Of a DNA stretch of 64,000 bases, positions 2,143 through 31,206 are shown in pieces. A model generated the notes under the pieces. That model worked only from the letters and a program-made list of their open reading frames with translations, had not been told where the DNA came from and ran no database searches. This stretch comes from Paracoccaceae bacterium (GTDB lineage: Bacteria; Pseudomonadota; Alphaproteobacteria; Rhodobacterales; Rhodobacteraceae), in the NCBI GenBank assembly GCA_013214575.1, contig JABSSD010000027.1:124001-188000 (forward strand). Direction: 5' to 3'. The first letter of the stretch is position 1, and the number at the start of each line of letters is the position of its first letter. Made by a program: the position numbers and the translations under genes.

Positions 2143-3624
2143 TCACTTCAGCTTCACGAGATCGTCCGGCTTCCAGGTCTGGTCGAAGAATTCGACGCCA
2201 CTGCCATAGATGCGCAGACCTGCAAGAAAGTGCCTACCCGAGAGGGTCTGAATCCAGTTGGATTCCGGGGCACCCTCCGGTTTGGTGGGCCCAAAGTAGA
2301 GGTCAACGGACCCGTCCTTGTTCTTGGCTAGGTTGTCGAAGCCATTCTTGCCGGGAAACCGCTGAGAGGTTTCTGGCATCGTCCCATCAGTAATGTTGTA
2401 GATGGTAACAGCCCAAAACAACTTGGCCGGAATGCCGGCTGGCAGGTGGAGTTTGTAGTTGTTGCTGCCGTGCAGTATCTCGCCGTCTGCATCCCTGATT
2501 GCGGCGGGATATTTGGAGCCGTTATTGATGGTGCGCATGACCATACCCGGCGCAGAGGAATAGGCGACCTGGAAGAACTTGGCGCGCTCCACAACATCCA
2601 GGTAAGTGTCCTGCATCCATTCTGACGTTGCGCCTGCCCAAAGGCGCCCCCACTGGCGATCTTTGTAATAGAGGTCGCGCTGGTCGGATCGACCCGCCTT
2701 GCGCTCTGCCAAGAGCATTCTTGGCGCGATCAGTACCGCTCGCTCCAACTGCGTTTTCTGTCTCGCTGTTGGAGAGAAGGGTTTTCCTTTGATGATACCG
2801 ATGGCGGCAAGCACACCACGGAGCTCGGGGGGGATGGCCGCATAAGGCTCATGGTCAACAAACGCCTTGAGTTTGGTCCAAAAAGCAAAATCGGTTGGGT
2901 ACATCATATTGATGCGCTTGCCCGAACCATCGGCGAACAGCATCGGTTTGATGTTTTTTTCTTCTTCCCACAGTGGATAAATGCGAGTGCGTTCTCCGAC
3001 TTCTATGGCAGGACCTGGAATGAGCCCATCCTCTCCACCCGGCATCACCATTCGGAAAAACAACATGACGCCATAGGTGCGGGACGTGTAGGTGTAATAT
3101 CCATCCGGGACTGGTCCTTGATAATTAGGAGGCAGCAGCAGGAAAAGGCCACCTTTAGCTCGGTCGGGCCCAATCGCTCCAACATCTACGATTGTGCGCT
3201 GGAAGAAGTCGGTGAACATGCCGATAACACCAGCAGGTGCGGCGACAACCAATGGACCGGTTTCCTTGAGGTCCAGAAAGGACATGGCATACATGATGTC
3301 CGCGTTGGGTGTTGGCACCCAAGTCTTCGCGCTCATCCGGTTCTTCCACATCGTTACAACGTTGTAGCCCGCGCCAAACGTCTTCTGGGCACCGTCTCGC
3401 ATCCCGATGGTATTCAATGCCGGTAGCATGGTCATGTAGGCTTGTATCGCCATGTTGTAGTAAAGCGCGTCACGCAGCTCTGCCGCTTCACTGTCGCTTG
3501 GCCAATTGCCGTCATAGTGCAGACGCACAGCCGGCGAATTTATTTCTTGTGCCTGTGCCTGAATGCCTCCCAAAACAGCGGCAACACAACCGACGGCAAG
3601 CATGGTGTTCAGTATTTTTTTCAT
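2143..3624 (-). CDS. DUF1254/DUF1214 periplasmic protein (second copy)
   Basis: A 493-residue secreted protein with a Sec signal peptide (cleavage plausibly after IQAQA near residue 25), an N-terminal DUF1254 half and a C-terminal DUF1214 half (FWAVTIYN, VDLYFGP). It is clearly related to the 178-1629 product but diverged, so this is an old paralogue pair and not a recent duplication. It is the first gene of the operon. The family role is unknown. A strong hairpin follows its stop codon and may set the level of the two downstream genes. Confidence 0.85.
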   Translation of the reverse strand: MKKILNTMLAVGCVAAVLGGIQAQAQEINSPAVRLHYDGNWPSDSEAAELRDALYYNMAIQAYMTMLPALNTIGMRDGAQKTFGAGYNVVTMWKNRMSAKTWVPTPNADIMYAMSFLDLKETGPLVVAAPAGVIGMFTDFFQRTIVDVGAIGPDRAKGGLFLLLPPNYQGPVPDGYYTYTSRTYGVMLFFRMVMPGGEDGLIPGPAIEVGERTRIYPLWEEEKNIKPMLFADGSGKRINMMYPTDFAFWTKLKAFVDHEPYAAIPPELRGVLAAIGIIKGKPFSPTARQKTQLERAVLIAPRMLLAERKAGRSDQRDLYYKDRQWGRLWAGATSEWMQDTYLDVVERAKFFQVAYSSAPGMVMRTINNGSKYPAAIRDADGEILHGSNNYKLHLPAGIPAKLFWAVTIYNITDGTMPETSQRFPGKNGFDNLAKNKDGSVDLYFGPTKPEGAPESNWIQTLSGRHFLAGLRIYGSGVEFFDQTWKPDDLVKLK

Positions 3625-4492: not shown

Positions 4493-5665
4493 TTGGTAGT
4501 TTTAGTTTTCTCCGGAGACCAAATTGGCGCGCAGTTCTCTATGGAAGAGGACAATAATGTCGATGTCGATTGGAGTATAGGTGAAACACCATTCCTGGCG
4601 ACTGACATTGTGCGGATCGAGATCAAGGATTCCCACGTCGACGCCAATGGCGAGTTTGATGGAGACGAGGTCTGGTTCCAATCCTTCACTGTAGAACGCG
4701 ACGGTGAAATCCATGAATTCGGAGTCGATGGCGGCTCCAAAATCAAGGAAAGCGGTGATGGTTCAAATGTTGAACAGGGCGATTCCTATTTCGTTCTAAA
4801 TGATAGCGTTTCCCCTCCTTCGTCTGGACCATTCGCTGGGTTAGACGAGCAGACCTATCTGTTTTCGTCTGATGTTCACTTCGACGGCGGGCCGAACACC
4901 TACATGTTGGGTCGCATTCAGGATTATGACTTCAACGAAGACACAGATACCATTGATCCTGGTGAGGCTGGAAACGCCAACTTTAACGTACAGTCTGCAA
5001 TGGCTGTCTGTTTTCACGCGGGAACAAAGATTGCGACCCCAGACGGTGACGTTTTTGTGGAAACACTCAAGCCGGGCGATTTGGTAATAACAGCGGACCA
5101 TGGGCCGCAACCAATAGTCTGGATCGGCAGCACCTCTCATCGCTGGTCAAGCGCGGAAAACCAGCAGAAACCATTTATTTTCCCGGTCGGCGCTTTAGGG
5201 GCTGGGCTCCCAAAACGAGACTTAGTTGTTTCGCCCCAGCACCGCATGTTGCTGCCTGTTGAAAGTCAAAAGGGCGGAGGGTTGGCACCCGCAAAAGGAA
5301 TGACAGGCCTGCAAGGCGTCCGGCAATTGCATGGAAGACGTTTTGCGGAGTACATTCACCTGTTGTTTGAACAGCACGAGATTATTTTCGCTGAAGGAGC
5401 TCCCAGTGAAAGTTTTTTCCCCGGCCCCATGGCGATGCGCAATTTGTCTGCTGAAAATGTAAAGCAAGTTCGGCAGGTCATCACGGAACCGAGTTCCAAA
5501 CTGGGCCTGGGTGATTTCAAGCCCGCGCGACCGTTCCTGACTGTCAAACAGGCCCAATTGCTAATCACCAAAACAAATCAATGCTGGACGCATGCGGGTC
5601 TGCAAACCATGGGACTTCCCCTTGACCGCGTTACTATGAGAGAAAATGAACTGGTCTATATTTAA
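4493..5665 (+). CDS. Hint-domain (hedgehog/intein-like) protein
   Basis: A 390-residue acidic protein. The N-terminal 165 residues are rich in Asp, Glu and Gly and look like a secreted or calcium-binding type region. A Hint_2 domain starts at Cys173 (AVCFHAGTKIATPDG), continues through VETLKPGDLVITADHG and holds the family-typical VVSPQHRMLLP. Such proteins are frequent in Roseobacters; Hint domains in general can self-cleave at the first Cys, but that is not shown for this group. The reading frame opens only at 4481, so the start is TTG 4493 (weakly supported by GAGAGGG upstream) or ATG 4541. The lack of a signal peptide and a protein-like stretch upstream in other frames suggest 5-prime truncation. 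Confidence 0.65.
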   Translation: MVVLVFSGDQIGAQFSMEEDNNVDVDWSIGETPFLATDIVRIEIKDSHVDANGEFDGDEVWFQSFTVERDGEIHEFGVDGGSKIKESGDGSNVEQGDSYFVLNDSVSPPSSGPFAGLDEQTYLFSSDVHFDGGPNTYMLGRIQDYDFNEDTDTIDPGEAGNANFNVQSAMAVCFHAGTKIATPDGDVFVETLKPGDLVITADHGPQPIVWIGSTSHRWSSAENQQKPFIFPVGALGAGLPKRDLVVSPQHRMLLPVESQKGGGLAPAKGMTGLQGVRQLHGRRFAEYIHLLFEQHEIIFAEGAPSESFFPGPMAMRNLSAENVKQVRQVITEPSSKLGLGDFKPARPFLTVKQAQLLITKTNQCWTHAGLQTMGLPLDRVTMRENELVYI

Positions 5666-5700
5666 GTGAGCAGCCCCACTTGAGTGGTCCAATTTGAAAG

Positions 5701-6482
5701 TTAGTGCATGGTTGGCCTTTGGTCCACCGGTATGATGGCCTCTGGCGCCGGTGGGCGGTAGGCGTTGTGGACGAGCCGGTCGAGGATGGCATCTGCGATG
5801 GTTGGCTCACCAATCACATCATGCCATGCGTCGATGGGGAGTTGGCTGGTGATGAGGGTTGACCCAGCCTCATACCTATCCTCAACGATTTCCATCAGAT
5901 CCCTGCGTTGAGCTGCATTTAGCCGGTCCGGCCCCCAGTCATCAAGGATCAGCAGGTTGGTTTTTGTCAGGCTTCGGAACAGGCGCGGAAAGCGACCGTC
6001 ACCGTGGGCCAGTTCCAGTTCATCAAACAACCGCGGCAGGCGTTTGTAGAGTACGGTTGTTCCCGACCGGCAGGCAGATTGTGCCAGCGCACAGGCACGC
6101 CATGTTTTGCCCATACCACAGGGGCCGGCTCTTCTCGGCGATGCAAAGCATCGCCTGTCAGGCAGTGGATCATCAGGTTGCGTCTGTCCCTGATCCACTT
6201 CCAGGTCAGCAGTTTTTGGAACAGCGCTTTGTCGAGATTACGCCGTGAGCGGTAATCCACATCCTCGGGGGACGCGCCCACATGGCGCAGCTTTGCGCTA
6301 CGCATCCGGCTTTCAAAGCGCCTGGTCTCGCGGCTGGCCGTCTCTCGATCAATGAGCAGGCCAAGCCATTCGGCATGGCTGAGCGAGGCGGTACCATCCT
6401 GCGTTTCCAGCTCAGTAAAGGCCTCGGCCATACCGTAGAACTTCAGGGCTTTGAGTTGATCCAGTGTTGGGTGAGTAAGCAT
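5701..6482 (-). pseudogene. istB: IS21 helper ATPase IstB, interrupted
   Basis: IstB is the AAA+ ATPase that assists the IS21 transposase. The N-terminal part (from ATG 6482) reads normally to RNLMI, then meets a palindromic element at about 6128-6168. The rest, in another frame, resumes at AGPCGMGKTW (Walker A) and continues through LLILDDWG (Walker B), ending VHNAYR. Deleting 38 bases at the junction joins NLMI directly to AGPCGMGKTW in one frame. The final residues after HNAYR do not match the family, so the 3-prime end is also damaged. Confidence 0.85.
6128..6168 (+). repeat. Palindromic element copy 1 (in istB)
   Basis: Core hairpin GGCGATGC-AAA-GCATCGCC has a perfect 8-bp stem, with conserved flanks TTCTC on the left and CTGTCAGGCAGTGGAT on the right. 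The copy lies exactly between the NLMI and GPCGMGKT codons of istB and shifts the frame. Confidence 0.85.
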
Positions 6483-6494
6483 ATTCTATCCTCT

Positions 6495-8076
6495 TCAATG
6501 AAAGTACCCGGCGCCACGGATGTTGGACTGAGTGATCGCAGGACCGTCCGTGGCGGGCGCGCGGCGCTGGCGGTCAAGACCATTTTTCAAAATGGAATTC
6601 AGAGATGTGAATGAGTAGGCATTGAGTTTGGCGGCACGCGCACAAGCATGTTCGAGGCGGTCCGTACCGAAGGTTTTTGCAAGCCGAAGAACACCCATGC
6701 AGGTTCGATATCCCTGCTCGGGATGCTTACGTTTCCGCATAATTACTTCGACGAAGGCCTCAGTGTTTGGCCCAACCCGCGCGGCCTTCAGGCGCATTTT
6801 CTCGGGCGTCCAATCTTCGTGGAACCTGTGATGCGCGGGCATGTGGTCACCCCTCTTGGCAGATTGCTGCGCAATCTCCTGCCGGGCAGTGGATGGGTGG
6901 AATGCTGGCGATTGCCCGACGTGCGGACGTGTGAGGCCACGCGTTGCCCTTTAAAATAGACCTCCACGGTTCGCGCGGTGATCCTGGCCCAGAGTTTTTG
7001 CTTCAGCAACTGATAGGCACTGAGTAATAGTGACGGCCAATGTCGACGTGGTAATCCAGCCCTGCGCGGCACTGTTTCCACTCGGCATAAACATAGGGTT
7101 CAACGGGCAATGCCTTGAGCGCTGGCCTGTCCAGCTGCTCAAATAGGGCCCGGCGACTGGCCCCCAAATGGCGGGTGACTTTGCCATTCAACTGATCGAG
7201 AAATGGCCGGATCGCGGCATTGAGTTCATCCAGACTGAAGAACCGCTGGTTCCGAAGGCGCGCCATGATCCACCGCTCAGCCAACAGCACCGTACCCTCG
7301 ACCTTGGCCTTGTCTTTTGGTCGATGGGGCCGCGCGGGCACGATGGCAGTGCCGTAGTGGGCAGCCATATCAGCGTAGGTGCGGTTGATTGCCGGATCAT
7401 AGAAACAGGCCTTCGTCACGCCGGCTTTCAGGTTATCGGAGACGACCTGCGCGGGCACCCCGCCGAAGAACTCAAACGCTCGTGCATGAGCCGATATCCA
7501 GTCGGGCAGGTTCTGCGACCAACTCGCTTCGACGTAAGTGTAATTCGACGCACCAAGCGTGGCGACAAAGAGCTGAGCCGTGCGCACTTCGCCCGTTTTG
7601 GGGCAGACCACATCAAAAGTGGCACCGGCATAATCAACAAACAGCCGTTCGCCCGCCGGGTGACGCTGCCGCATCACCGGCGATAGCTTGCCTTCCCAGC
7701 GAGTGTAGAGTTCGCAATATCGGCTGTAGCCATAGCCATTCGGATGAACGGTTCGATACTTGTCCCACAACAGCGAAAGAGTAACCCCTTTCCGGCGTAG
7801 CTCGGCATGCACATAGGCCCAGTCAGGTTGTGGTATAGCCCCAAGATCATCGCCCTTCCTCAGAGGGAAAAGGTGTGTCTCAAGGTCAACGTCGCTGAGG
7901 TCCGCAGAGAGAGGCCAGGCCAAACCGGCCCGATCGGCGCGGCTCAGATATTCCCGCAGGGTTGTACGCCCCACAGATAAACTGGAAGCCATTTCCCTCG
8001 TTGACATGCCACTCGCACGAAGCCGCAAGGCCTCTCGTATTGTCCGCATCGGCGCTCTCTTCATAAGGGGTCTCAT
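6495..8076 (-). pseudogene. istA: IS21 transposase IstA, multiply frameshifted
   Basis: IstA is the DDE transposase of IS21. The N-terminal helix-turn-helix (ASGMSTREMASSLSVGRTT) and rve core (FVDYAGATFD, VVSDNLKAGV, KAKVEGTV) are intact from ATG 8076 to about 7006. There a missing base turns SVPYQLLKQ into SVPISC-stop. The next frame continues to about 6894, where a palindromic element breaks it again. The C-terminal part (MPAHHRFHEDWTPE to 6495) is in a third state. Two independent lesions in one gene make a simple sequencing error unlikely for both. Confidence 0.85.
6850..6893 (+). repeat. Palindromic element copy 2 (in istA)
   Basis: Core GG-C-AGATTGC-TGC-GCAATCTCC pairs over 9 bp with one bulged base; flanks are CCCCTCTT and CTGCCGGGCAGTGGAT. 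Removing 41 or 44 bases here rejoins the istA C-terminal frame just before HMPAHHRFHEDW. Confidence 0.85.
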
Positions 8077-8299
8077 CGTTCAAAAAGAAAGACAGGCTAC
8101 CCCGCGTCACGGGCGCTTCAACACAACACAAAACAGGCCAGAGAGGGGTGGGCGGATGGCCCGGAATCCCCGGGCGGATCAGATCGGAATGGGTGGGCGG
8201 ATGTTATCGGTACAGGTGGGCGGATCATCCCGGAATGCGCATACAGCCCGCTTCTGAGTGACGAGAACGAGCACATCGCTGATCTTCTGGTTGGGCTGA

Positions 8300-8338
8300 C
8301 CACTGCCTGACAGGGCATTGAAAATGCCCGAGAGGGGG
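8300..8338 (-). repeat. Palindromic element copy 3 (in IS3 orfB)
   Basis: On the minus strand the core is GGGCATT-TTC-AATGCCC, a perfect 7-bp stem, with flanks CCCCTCTC and CTGTCAGGCAGTGG. It lies between LVGLT and ARKTRGFG of the transposase. Confidence 0.85.
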
Positions 8339-8425
8339 ACGCCCGGAAGACCCGGGGCTTTGGACTATGTTTACTGCATCTACGCAACGTGAAGGGCCAT
8401 CCGTGGAACCACAAACGCGTTTGTC

Positions 8426-8467
8426 CCACTGGCTGACAGGTGAATGCGAAGCAATCACCGAGAAGCG
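8426..8467 (-). repeat. Palindromic element copy 4 (in IS3 orfB)
   Basis: Minus-strand core GGTGATTGC-TTC-GCATTCACC pairs over 9 positions with one mismatch; flanks CTTCTC and CTGTCAGCCAGTGG. It lies between NHKRV and IYCELELNLR. Confidence 0.8.
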
Positions 8468-8497
8468 CATCTACTGCGAATTGGAACTGAACCTGCG

Positions 8498-8538
8498 CCC
8501 CTATCGGGACATTGCGATGCGATGCCCTGTCGGGTGAC
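8498..8538 (+). repeat. Palindromic element copy 5 (in IS3 orfB)
   Basis: Core GGGACATTGC-GAT-GCGATGCCC pairs with one bulged A and a G-T pair; flanks CCCCTATC and CTGTCGGGTGAC. It lies between ELELNLR and IKPRKRLKR. Confidence 0.8.
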
Positions 8539-8649
8539 AATCAAGCCCCGAAAGCGGTTGAAACGAGACAAGCCCGACGCGTTGGCGGTGCCTGAGAAGC
8601 CAAATGGAGGCACAGGACTTTGCCACGCAATGGCTCTGGACATACAACA

Positions 8650-8694
8650 CCCCCTCTCGGGACATTGCTACGCAATACCCTGCCGGGCAGCGGA
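8650..8694 (+). repeat. Palindromic element copy 6 (in IS3 orfB)
   Basis: Core GGGACATTGC-TAC-GCAATACCC; flanks CCCCTCTC and CTGCCGGGCAGCGGAT. It lies between QWLWTYNT and RPNMGIGG. Confidence 0.85.
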
Positions 8695-8756
8695 TCCGCC
8701 CGAATATGGGCATCGGCGGCACCACACCCGCCATGAAACTGAAAATGGCCGCGTAA

Positions 8757-8998
8757 GTTCTACGGCCGCACTCCTCTAAAAATGGGGGATTACCCAATGG
8801 TCAGGCAGGCTTGTATCGCAGCATCGCTGTAGGCCTGCTGTCGCCCCCGTTTGCCTGAGGGTTTGGCCTCCCATTACATGTTAACGACCAACCGGGTTGC
8901 GAGTGACCCGCGTTGCTTCAGGGCCCGATTGTCGCGATGATCCCGCCTGGGGGAAGGGCAGGGCTCCGGTTCAGTTGTGCTCCTATGCCCATTGAACT
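8757..8998. other. Spacer after IS3 remnant
   Basis: About 240 bases without a supportable gene. The first part probably holds the end of the IS3 element; the rest shows nothing recognisable. Confidence 0.4.
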
Positions 8999-9694
8999 CT
9001 AAAGAACCGTAGGGGAGCGAATTTTGGCTATCTCTGATGGCCTGAAAGGGGCGGTTTTTTCGACACCATTGAAAAAGGCACTCACGGTGTTTGTAACAGC
9101 CAATTCAATGTCAATTTCAACCCGTTCGCCATAAACGTACTTGCGTATCGCAATGTAAAAAACGGCTCCGTGCAGCCCCCAGAACAACTCAAGGTCTTCC
9201 TCAGTTGGAACGGCAGGGCTGGAGCCCTGATCAACTTCGTAGCGCAATTCCAACGCGGCCGGGCGAATGATTTTGGTCCGGATGATGTCCAGGTAGCGTT
9301 CTGTCAGCCCATAGGATTTCAGCCCCGAGGACACAAATATACGGACCCAATCATAGTCAAAAACGCGGTTGGCGTACTCGATATAGAATTGTGTCATCCG
9401 ATCCTGGAGACTGCGGCTGCGGTCCAGCACTAACGGCTCCCAATCCGGGTTCCATCGTTTTACGTAAACATGGTCGTAAACCCGCTCTATCAAAGCATCT
9501 TTACTGTCAAAATGCCGGTAGATCACAGCATGGGAGACACCCATCCGTTTCGCCAGTTCTCTGGTTTGCCCCTCAAAGCCACATTCGGCAAAGAACCGTA
9601 CCGCCTCCGAAATAATCATTTTTTCGCGGTCCTCGCGACGCATGTTTTTGCGACGCGGCGCGGTCTCGCTTTTGTTACTGTCTGATCCTGCCAT
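8999..9694 (-). CDS. TetR-family transcriptional regulator
   Basis: A 231-residue regulator with an N-terminal TetR helix-turn-helix at about residues 22-66 (EAVRFFAECGFEGQTRELAKRMGVSHAVIYRHF) and a ligand-binding C-terminal domain of unknown specificity. It is transcribed away from the molybdenum hydroxylase genes, and the intergenic region carries two inverted 17-bp arms bracketing a promoter, so it most likely represses the hydroxylase-TRAP operon (and perhaps itself) until a substrate-like ligand binds. The ligand cannot be read from sequence. Confidence 0.85.
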   Translation of the reverse strand: MAGSDSNKSETAPRRKNMRREDREKMIISEAVRFFAECGFEGQTRELAKRMGVSHAVIYRHFDSKDALIERVYDHVYVKRWNPDWEPLVLDRSRSLQDRMTQFYIEYANRVFDYDWVRIFVSSGLKSYGLTERYLDIIRTKIIRPAALELRYEVDQGSSPAVPTEEDLELFWGLHGAVFYIAIRKYVYGERVEIDIELAVTNTVSAFFNGVEKTAPFRPSEIAKIRSPTVL

Positions 9695-9742
9695 CGGTCT
9701 CTCGCAAATGTTTGGGCAAGGATAACCGATTTGGTGGAAATT

Positions 9743-9807
9743 ACCAAGCGGTCACTTTTTTCTTGACGGGTGTCACTATGTACGCTTATCAAAAGTGACC
9801 GCTTGGT
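9743..9807. promoter_or_regulatory. TetR operator arms bracketing a promoter
   Basis: ACCAAGCGGTCACTTTT (9743-9759) and its exact inverse AAAAGTGACCGCTTGGT (9791-9807) flank TTGACG (9763-9768), a 17-base gap and TTATCA (9786-9791). Each arm contains an approximate palindrome (AAGTGACCGCTT), so each may bind one TetR dimer. Confidence 0.7.
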
Positions 9808-9846
9808 TATAAAACTGGCGGAGAGGCTGAATTCTAAGGGCGAAAA

Positions 9847-10707
9847 ATGAAGTCACCGGCGTTTGAATATATACGGGCGGAGAGCGTTGCAGGCGCAATG
9901 TCGGCCTATGCCGAGGCGGGTGATGACGTGGTTTACCTTGCAGGTGGGCACAGTGTTGTACCGTCTCTGGCCCTGCGTCTTCAGGCGCCGGCCTTGATGA
10001 TTGACCTATCGGAAATCGCGGCGCTTTCCGGCATATCGTTTCAGGATGGATGGCTTCGCATTGGTGCGATGACCCGGCACGTTCAGGCGATCAATGATCC
10101 GTTGATCGCAGCGCAGGCGCCGCTGTTTGCGGCGGCGGCCCCATTTGTGGCCCATCCCGCCATTCGCAATCGCGGGACTCTGGGCGGCAGCCTGGCCCAT
10201 GCGGACCCGGCGTCAGAGTTCCCCGCAGCGGCTGTTGCCATGCGGGTTGAGCTTGAGATTGCATCGCCAAAAGGCACCCGTCGGGTGCCTGCGGATGAGT
10301 TCTTTTTGGACATCTACGAGACGGCGATAGAGCCTGGGGAAATCCTGCTGGCGATCCATGTTCCTGGCCCGGTGGCCGGGCAGGTGATTGGCTTTGACGA
10401 AATCACCAGGCGGCAGGGTGACTACGCCATGGTCGGCGCTGCGGTTCAGGCGGTCGCCAAGGACGGCATTCTGCAGGACATCAGTATCGCATTGTTTTCG
10501 GTTGGAACCCGCCCCACAAGAGCCGTCGCCGCGCAGGCAGCATTGATGGGCCGGGTGATTGATGATGCATCGATTGCAGACGCCAAGGCGGCGCTTGGCG
10601 ATGATCTTGATCCACCCGATGATCTGCAGTTTCCAGCAACTATGCGCTTGCATTTGGCGCGCGTGTTGCTGGGGCGAATTCTAGCAAATCTGGAGGCGGT
10701 GGCATGA
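9847..10707 (+). CDS. Molybdenum hydroxylase FAD-binding (medium) subunit
   Basis: A 286-residue CoxM-like subunit of the xanthine dehydrogenase superfamily. It carries electrons from the iron-sulfur subunit to FAD and on to an acceptor. The FAD pyrophosphate motifs are present: AGGHSVVP at about residues 32-39 and TLGGSLAHADP at about 111-121, followed by the C-terminal CO_deh_flav_C region. Its stop overlaps the start of the small subunit by 4 bases. Substrate cannot be assigned from this subunit. It is the first gene after the TetR-controlled promoter. Confidence 0.9.
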   Translation: MKSPAFEYIRAESVAGAMSAYAEAGDDVVYLAGGHSVVPSLALRLQAPALMIDLSEIAALSGISFQDGWLRIGAMTRHVQAINDPLIAAQAPLFAAAAPFVAHPAIRNRGTLGGSLAHADPASEFPAAAVAMRVELEIASPKGTRRVPADEFFLDIYETAIEPGEILLAIHVPGPVAGQVIGFDEITRRQGDYAMVGAAVQAVAKDGILQDISIALFSVGTRPTRAVAAQAALMGRVIDDASIADAKAALGDDLDPPDDLQFPATMRLHLARVLLGRILANLEAVA

Positions 10708-31092: not shown

Positions 31093-31164
31093 TTCTGGCT
31101 GACAGGCGAACAAATAGCGCGGCCTGAGCCCTTCTTTGCGAAGTCGCATGGCAAGCCCCGCGTT
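31093..31164 (+). pseudogene. IS5-family transposase N-terminal fragment
   Basis: The reading frame gives FWLTGEQIARPEPFFAKSHG and then KPRV, which matches the N-terminus of IS5-group OrfA proteins (usually WLT.EQ.ARLEPFFPKSHGKPRVDDRRVLSG). The match stops exactly at KPRV, where a palindromic element begins; the expected DDRRVLSG does not follow, so the remainder is lost. Confidence 0.7.
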
Positions 31165-31206
31165 CGCTGCCCGTCAGGGTATTGCATAGCAATGTCGCGA
31201 GAGGGA
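31165..31206 (-). repeat. Palindromic element copy 7 (at IS5 fragment)
   Basis: Minus-strand core GCGACATTGC-TAT-GCAATACCC with flanks CCCTCTC and CTGACGGGCAGCG, almost identical to copy 6. It abuts the last matching codon of the IS5-type fragment. Confidence 0.8.

Follow-up and report, generated by a model that had tools for sequence, protein, structure and literature searches.

A REP-like mobile hairpin of Rhodobacterales that is found mostly in or next to insertion sequences

Short palindromes of bacterial genomes are mostly described as intergenic, and outside RAYT systems they have no known way of moving. Transposons of the IS200/IS605 type insert without duplicating their target, and in mitochondria the so-called byps are inserts which are skipped during translation. 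Among the systems closest to the repeat reported here are the CGTC REPs of Alphaproteobacteria, which in the part of the published account considered here have no dedicated transposase, lie mostly between genes and show few, fortuitous associations with transposase genes (PMC3733652). The REPs of Bradyrhizobium are intergenic according to the consulted part of their description (PMC5082802), and Rickettsia palindromic elements (RPEs), in the excerpt used here, are in-frame insertions fused with ordinary genes (PMC10969869). The listings of our literature search contained no description of the present repeat or of a palindrome family confined to transposase genes.

The window, i.e. the whole stretch of DNA that was analysed, comprises 64,000 nucleotides (G000:C139:124001-188000). 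Its own genome, G000, has 5.59 Mb in 218 contigs; G001-G007 are other genomes of the genus, and L-numbers denote fetched loci. The hairpins of the window and the elements in which they lie are as follows.

5701-8076, minus strand: IS21-type remnant (istB, istA) with two hairpins within, identified by Pfam domains; 6495-6842 (minus strand) has no Pfam match.
6129-6170, plus strand: hairpin within the IstB reading frames of the IS21-type remnant; model match, IstB_IS21 domain in 5701-6198 (minus strand).
6850-6894, plus strand: hairpin between two parts of the IS21-type remnant; the neighbours are frames with IstB and rve/Mu-transpos_C_2 domains.
8242-8756, plus strand: IS3-type orfB remnant with four hairpins inside and about 360 bp lost at about 8605/8606; ordered alignment to the intact orfB L009:2352-3179.
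8298-8337, minus strand: hairpin copy 1, a short-stem variant, net gain 36 bp (8301-8336), also in L010, L232 and L238; model match and comparison with L009.
8424-8467, minus strand: hairpin copy 2, second subfamily, net gain 41 bp, also in L010 and L166; model match and comparison with L009.
8498-8538, plus strand: hairpin copy 3, with 41 bp at the same site in L166; model match, sequence reading and L166.
8651-8695, plus strand: hairpin copy 4, net gain 42 bp, the site being filled with other stems in L171 and L011; model match and comparison with L009.
31162-31206, minus strand: hairpin with IS5-type transposase homology on one flank; model match and flank test.

The initial annotation had described four copies, in both orientations, within an IS3-family orfB remnant whose intervening pieces keep their order, and both statements hold. 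The intact orfB of the own genome (L009; 275 aa, domains rve, rve_3 and HTH_21) aligns with the window in ordered pieces (8242-8300 with 2463-2521, 8337-8422 with 2522-2607, 8466-8498 with 2610-2642, 8606-8649 with 3071-3114 and 8696-8795 with 3119-3219). Since uninterrupted homologs exist without the hairpins, the four are insertions. For copy 3 the basis is the sequence itself together with the filled site in L166; the comparison of filled with empty sites gave no window row for it.

Two further features of the region may be recorded. The IS21-type remnant is adjoined at 8146-8237 by short direct repeats (three copies of GGGTGGGCGGATG), perhaps a repeated IS end. An inverted repeat at 9740-9810, with 20-nt arms that are 95% complementary, lies between a TetR-type-looking regulator frame (8999-9694, minus strand) and a gene start at 9847 (plus strand) and is perhaps an operator. 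Known RNA families gave no match at E<=1 in window positions 5500-9500, and the hairpin at 6850-6894 had no flank match to our set of transposase ORFs on either side.

The hairpin is about 41 bp long and consists of CCCTCTCGGG, stem, loop, stem and CCTGCCGGGCAGTG. In 83 distinct full-length copies the conserved ends are CCCTCTCGG and CCTGCCGGGCAGTG; the outer bases are nearly invariant and the inner stem varies with compensation. The main stem pairs positions 8-17 with 21-29, and 12 bases remain before the 3' flank. Across 60 aligned copies 95.5% of the stem cells are paired. Two-sided changes number 63, compared with 14.1 for shuffles, of which 0 of 500 reached this value; the pairing signal disappears when the partner strand is slid along. 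The count of further stem pair types was not above that of the shuffles (138 of 500 as high). The fold rests on this covariation, since by folding energy three of the window copies, taken singly, are unremarkable (z between -0.66 and -0.89), with z -2.65 for copy 1.

A search model built from 14 copies gave at least 116 matches at E<=0.1 in the own genome, 96 of them at E<=0.001; the total is a minimum, because scoring covered 150 of the 3482 candidates. The copies are strongly clustered, with 47 neighbour pairs at a distance of at most 1.5 kb; 2000 random placements gave 3.6 such pairs on average and never more than 13. The density which the initial annotation had found so hard to explain is thus not peculiar to orfB: 13 other regions of the genome hold 3 to 6 copies whose spacing is below 1.5 kb. 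Where adjacent copies lie within 700 bp, their orientation is ++ in 36 cases, -+ in 35, -- in 23 and +- in 18; no single arrangement dominates, and a REPIN-like pair unit was rejected on this ground.

In the eight genus genomes, G000 to G007, matches at E<=0.001 number 96, 0, 0, 8, 1, 110, 51 and 21. Class-wide, under stricter filters, 5 of 143 genomes (own included) had a match at E<=0.0001, two of the five belonging to other families. A consensus pattern found 86 stretches of named genomes, and the titles of the 80 listed are mostly Rhodobacterales. The repeat is also contained in 100 plasmid records, mainly of Pseudosulfitobacter, Sulfitobacter, Leisingera and Phaeobacter; the PLSDB annotation was of little help here because pseudogenes are absent from it. 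In viral contigs, searched with one strict pattern for a phage carrier, 0 stretches were found. One locus (L062), an IS5-type remnant with a hairpin, bears the title Enemella evansiae, which is not a proteobacterium; this is either transfer or contamination.

The precision of insertion was assessed by setting filled sites against homologous empty sites in other loci, gains below 26 bp being excluded. In the 160 pairs the gain was 41 bp in 74 and 40 bp in 48; among the 91 distinct sites, i.e. those with a gain of 38-43 bp, it was 40 or 41 bp in 75. An example from within one genome is AAACCAT|GACGAA (L161) versus AAACCAT[41 bp]GACGAA (L172). The net gain equals the element, and no net length remains for a target duplication. 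In 47 of the 91 cases the empty site has GAY as the three bases that directly follow the insertion point on its 3' side; no other offset that we tested gave more than 8, and at 44 sites the exact GAY is absent. The plus strand of the hairpin is the coding strand at 132 of 201 sites (expected 50.6%), a count to which one IS5 group contributes 24 to 1; it leaves aside 17 hits whose flanks were in conflict, and common descent of the sites has been only partly removed from it. By its precise insertion relative to empty homologs and its conserved fold, the hairpin is a dispersed mobile palindromic repeat.

How does it compare with the described families? Like the CGTC REPs, as far as the partial account goes (PMC3733652), it is a short high-copy palindrome of Alphaproteobacteria for which no dedicated transposase is known, and the GAYG that often follows its 3' end reads CRTC on the opposite strand. 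In that account, however, CGTC REPs carry their tag as part of themselves, next to a stem of 8-9 bp, whereas the GAY of the hairpin is already present in the empty target, with 12 bases between it and the main stem. No tag (CGTC, TGTC or CCTC) stands next to the stem of the hairpin, and the flank of the 91 filled sites is most commonly GATG (21), with GACG in 9, GACA in 7 and GAGG in none. CGTC REPs are mostly intergenic in the same partial source; the hairpin lies mostly in or beside IS. With the GTAG REPs of RAYT systems and the REPINs it shares short covarying hairpins, lack of autonomy and many copies, but its consensus carries no GTAG tag at either end, its habitat is IS DNA and not spacers, and the copy-richest genus-mate, G005, has no Y1 enzyme. 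RPEs, too, are palindromes within coding sequence, yet in the excerpt cited above they sit in frame in ordinary genes, whereas the hairpin sits in transposase genes and mostly shifts the frame (frame kept at 12 of 91 sites). It is small and non-autonomous like MITEs and the palindromic derivatives of IS200/IS605, but its two ends do not form an inverted repeat, and our searches gave no parental element. A target duplication, expected of MITEs, is absent, as it is in IS200/IS605 insertion. Of its features only the one-sided motif and the absent duplication are compatible with HUH single-strand transposition. The repeat works REP-like but departs from the CGTC REPs, the RAYT-linked REPs, the RPEs and the MITEs in features that we tested; we therefore file it as a variant of the mobile palindromic repeat.

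What sets it apart is that the whole family is nearly confined to IS DNA; this, and not the density within orfB, is the anomaly. Twenty recurrent ORFs adjoin hairpins, 17 with domains assigned to transposases and 3 without a Pfam match; the 17 belong to what we take to be the families IS3, IS4/5, IS110, IS66, IS21 (both genes), IS481 type and IS6. In a flank test we masked the hairpins, left out matches of a locus to itself and compared 400 bp on each side of a hairpin with the transposase ORFs from hairpin loci. For the 80 listed loci of the pattern scan, transposase homology was present on both flanks in 51, on one in 19 (4 of them with a second flank of insufficient length for testing) and on none in 10. 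As controls, 65 sites within these loci that lay over 2 kb away from any hairpin gave 0, 3 and 62, the control hits being undercounted to some degree because the transposase set was assembled from ORFs near hairpins. Six of the 10 loci without a flank match have transposase domains beside the hairpin: HTH_Tnp_1 in L053 and L125, TnpB_IS66 in L058 and L126, DDE_Tnp_IS66 in L123 and Transposase_mut in L067. For another two, L086 and L092, a different locus supplies a matching empty site, and on visual inspection both appear to be transposase genes, although a piece of L086 had no Pfam match. Just two of the 80 loci are clear non-IS sites, L117:4297-4410 and L120:4021-4133, with paired hairpins between ordinary genes of one Sulfitobacter strain.

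The same picture was obtained within genomes. Copies fetched from the own genome (61 at E<=0.05, part of the 116) had transposase homology on both flanks in 46 cases, on one in 11 and on none in 4; for 64 copies of G005 the numbers were 43, 16 and 5. All these loci had been fetched for their hairpins; in a sample of G005 drawn at even spacing (20 stretches of 20 kb, 400 kb together) IS lay within 100 bp of 7 of the 9 hairpins with E<0.001, as against 2.8% of IS-like bases; for weaker matches (E 0.001-0.02) it was 3 of 5. The true enrichment is smaller than this bare ratio, since the transposase set underestimates IS, marking 1288 bases of the window versus about 2.4 kb for the IS21-type remnant alone. 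The exceptions in the sample are L277:1080, a hairpin inside a frame with an HTH_38 domain that we read as IS30, and L275:14970, which has no IS assignment. Four named plasmid records, chosen from those that contain the repeat, showed transposase homology on both flanks in three cases and a weak one-flank match in the fourth.

Contig C1 of G005 carries an IS110-type element with two hairpins in four full copies and one split copy (L161-L165, e.g. L162:1555-3000) of 98-99% identity; the remaining matches to it in G005 are partial or more distant. This element seems to have spread with the hairpins aboard. One site of near-identical IS110 copies holds different, internally compensated stems (L161:3174 versus L164:2594 and L165:3530), as if the stem had been swapped or rewritten as a unit.

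Our preferred interpretation, which we hold to be quite probable, is that the four orfB insertions are copies of a REP-like mobile hairpin, about 41 bp long and non-autonomous, that habitually resides in IS DNA. A trans-acting enzyme would recognise the folded hairpin, probably as single-stranded DNA, and would join it at GAY, such that the 3' end of the hairpin comes to lie directly 5' of this motif. This enzyme would not be a resident RAYT/Y1 protein. Somewhat more likely than not, IS DNA would be preferred as the target, perhaps because its own transposition exposes single strands.

Alternatively, the hairpin could insert anywhere with a GAY and be lost from other places, IS remnants being merely the neutral DNA in which copies last. 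Most gains break the frame, so that copies in genes would be purged; hairpins are present in older, partial IS3 copies, whereas the 17 full-length IS3 copies of G005 show no length gain and no hairpin; and the strong clustering in old remnants suits a slow accumulation. However, spacers should tolerate an insertion of 41 bp as well, and just 2 of the 80 loci with near-consensus, presumably young, copies are found there. Published REP families, moreover, are mostly intergenic in the part of the source at hand (PMC3733652). As the near-consensus copies are already almost confined to IS, we lean somewhat towards a real preference for IS rather than mere survival of insertions there, although the hairpin-free full-length IS3 copies of G005 speak for slow accumulation in dead copies and against a preference. 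Differential survival is a serious reading, but not the one that we would expect to prevail.

According to the classical REP/RAYT explanation, the hairpin is mobilised by a Y1 transposase of IS200/IS605 type which the genome itself encodes. A short palindrome, the absent duplication and a short one-sided motif would suit this, and the own genome does contain one Y1_Tnp match. That match (G000:C90:12777-13100, L017) has an internal TAG stop and no hairpin in its locus; G001 has one Y1_Tnp and zero hairpin matches; and G005, with 110 matches at E<=0.001, has no Y1_Tnp, by which a resident enzyme of this type is largely refuted. We regard this explanation as very unlikely. IS91-type Y2_Tnp was found in three of the eight genomes (G000, G005 and G006), which are the three richest in hairpins; G007 has 21 hairpins and no Y2_Tnp, and the four Y2_Tnp loci fetched, of nine matches (including L226, L227 and L229 of G005/G006), contain no hairpin inside. 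Y2_Tnp as mobiliser is a weak lead.

A longer autonomous form with the same ends was not found via the 3'-end matches (27 in G000, 39 in G005) and 5'-end matches (17 and 20). In G000, model matches account for 23 of the 27 3' ends and 16 of the 17 5' ends. The four remaining 3' ends comprise two hairpins that a contig end truncates (L189, L190) and two places without a clear hairpin (L012, L191), which is also lacking at one fetched 3' end of G005 (L197); we read such ends as deletions or variants. A split autonomous form may exist among the 5' ends of G005. Among the loci and genus genomes examined we found no mobiliser and no linked gene.

The latter result also bears on the idea of a host defence in which hairpin insertion inactivates IS elements. 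The near-confinement to many IS families and the mostly frameshifting gains would fit, but besides the missing linked gene the 17 full-length IS3 copies of G005 are untouched, and the IS110-type element with its two hairpins in several copies means that hairpins do not always stop the spread of their host. We give this idea little credence.

It is highly improbable that, as with RPEs or byps, the insertion is tolerated in the protein or skipped in translation, such that an interrupted transposase stays functional. The IS110 element amplified in G005 does bear a 41-bp insertion inside its transposase gene, and all six frames are stop-free in 39 of 83 distinct copies versus 9 of 83 after shuffling. 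On the other hand, the gain is not a multiple of three at 79 of the 91 distinct sites, which rules out an in-frame coding role as a general rule; a count at the protein level gave 81 of 96 out of frame and 15 in frame. Host genes are mostly further decayed, as only 8 of the 51 both-flank loci align over 300 of the 400 bp in one frame on both sides, and copy 1 of the window, by reading of the sequence, adds an in-frame TGA.

The related IS3 copies allow the order of events to be considered. No site is filled in L009, in the fetched full-length G005 copies and in L233 (G003). In G006, copy 1 is present in L232, which has a hairpin at another site as well, and in L238, where site 2 is hard to read. 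L010 of the own genome has copies 1 and 2, sites 3 and 4 not being readable, and L166 (G005) has copies 2 and 3. The window is the sole holder of all four among the IS3 copies read, some rows of this comparison being one place fetched twice; no other intact IS3 containing all four was seen. Because related copies hold different subsets, from none to the full set, the four are separate events, as the initial annotation had proposed. Its further claim that they all entered one gene copy found no support: copies 1, 2 and 3 recur at the same sites in IS copies of a different contig or of congeneric species, and at least three of the insertions are thus probably older than the orfB copy of the window. 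The IS3 lineage gained the four at different times, at least three being common to sister copies. For copy 1 the same unusual short stem in four places argues for common descent. The others may be repeated hits on the same site; the copy-4 site in L171 and L011 is filled with stems unlike that of the window. The 17 hairpin-free full-length copies of G005 indicate that insertion is slow or favours old copies. That the hairpins were an original part of IS3 and never inserted is virtually impossible, since, although copies 1 to 3 are common to several IS copies, intact homologs lack the hairpins with zero bases between the joined parts and the same hairpin occurs at other sites in unrelated IS families.

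The hairpin family offers empty sites, exact ends and a target motif, and nearly all examined copies lie in unrelated transposon families. Two questions thereby become testable, namely what moves palindromes that have no RAYT, and whether IS DNA is recognised as such. For the genomes concerned the hairpin is a simple source of transposase pseudogenes and provides markers for the history of IS lineages. The strongest form of the hypothesis, in which the hairpin actively and nearly exclusively enters IS of many families via a GAY-acting enzyme and inactivates them, is tentative and, on balance, rather unlikely. If it were true, the hairpin would be a transposon of transposons that holds the IS load in check throughout the Rhodobacterales.
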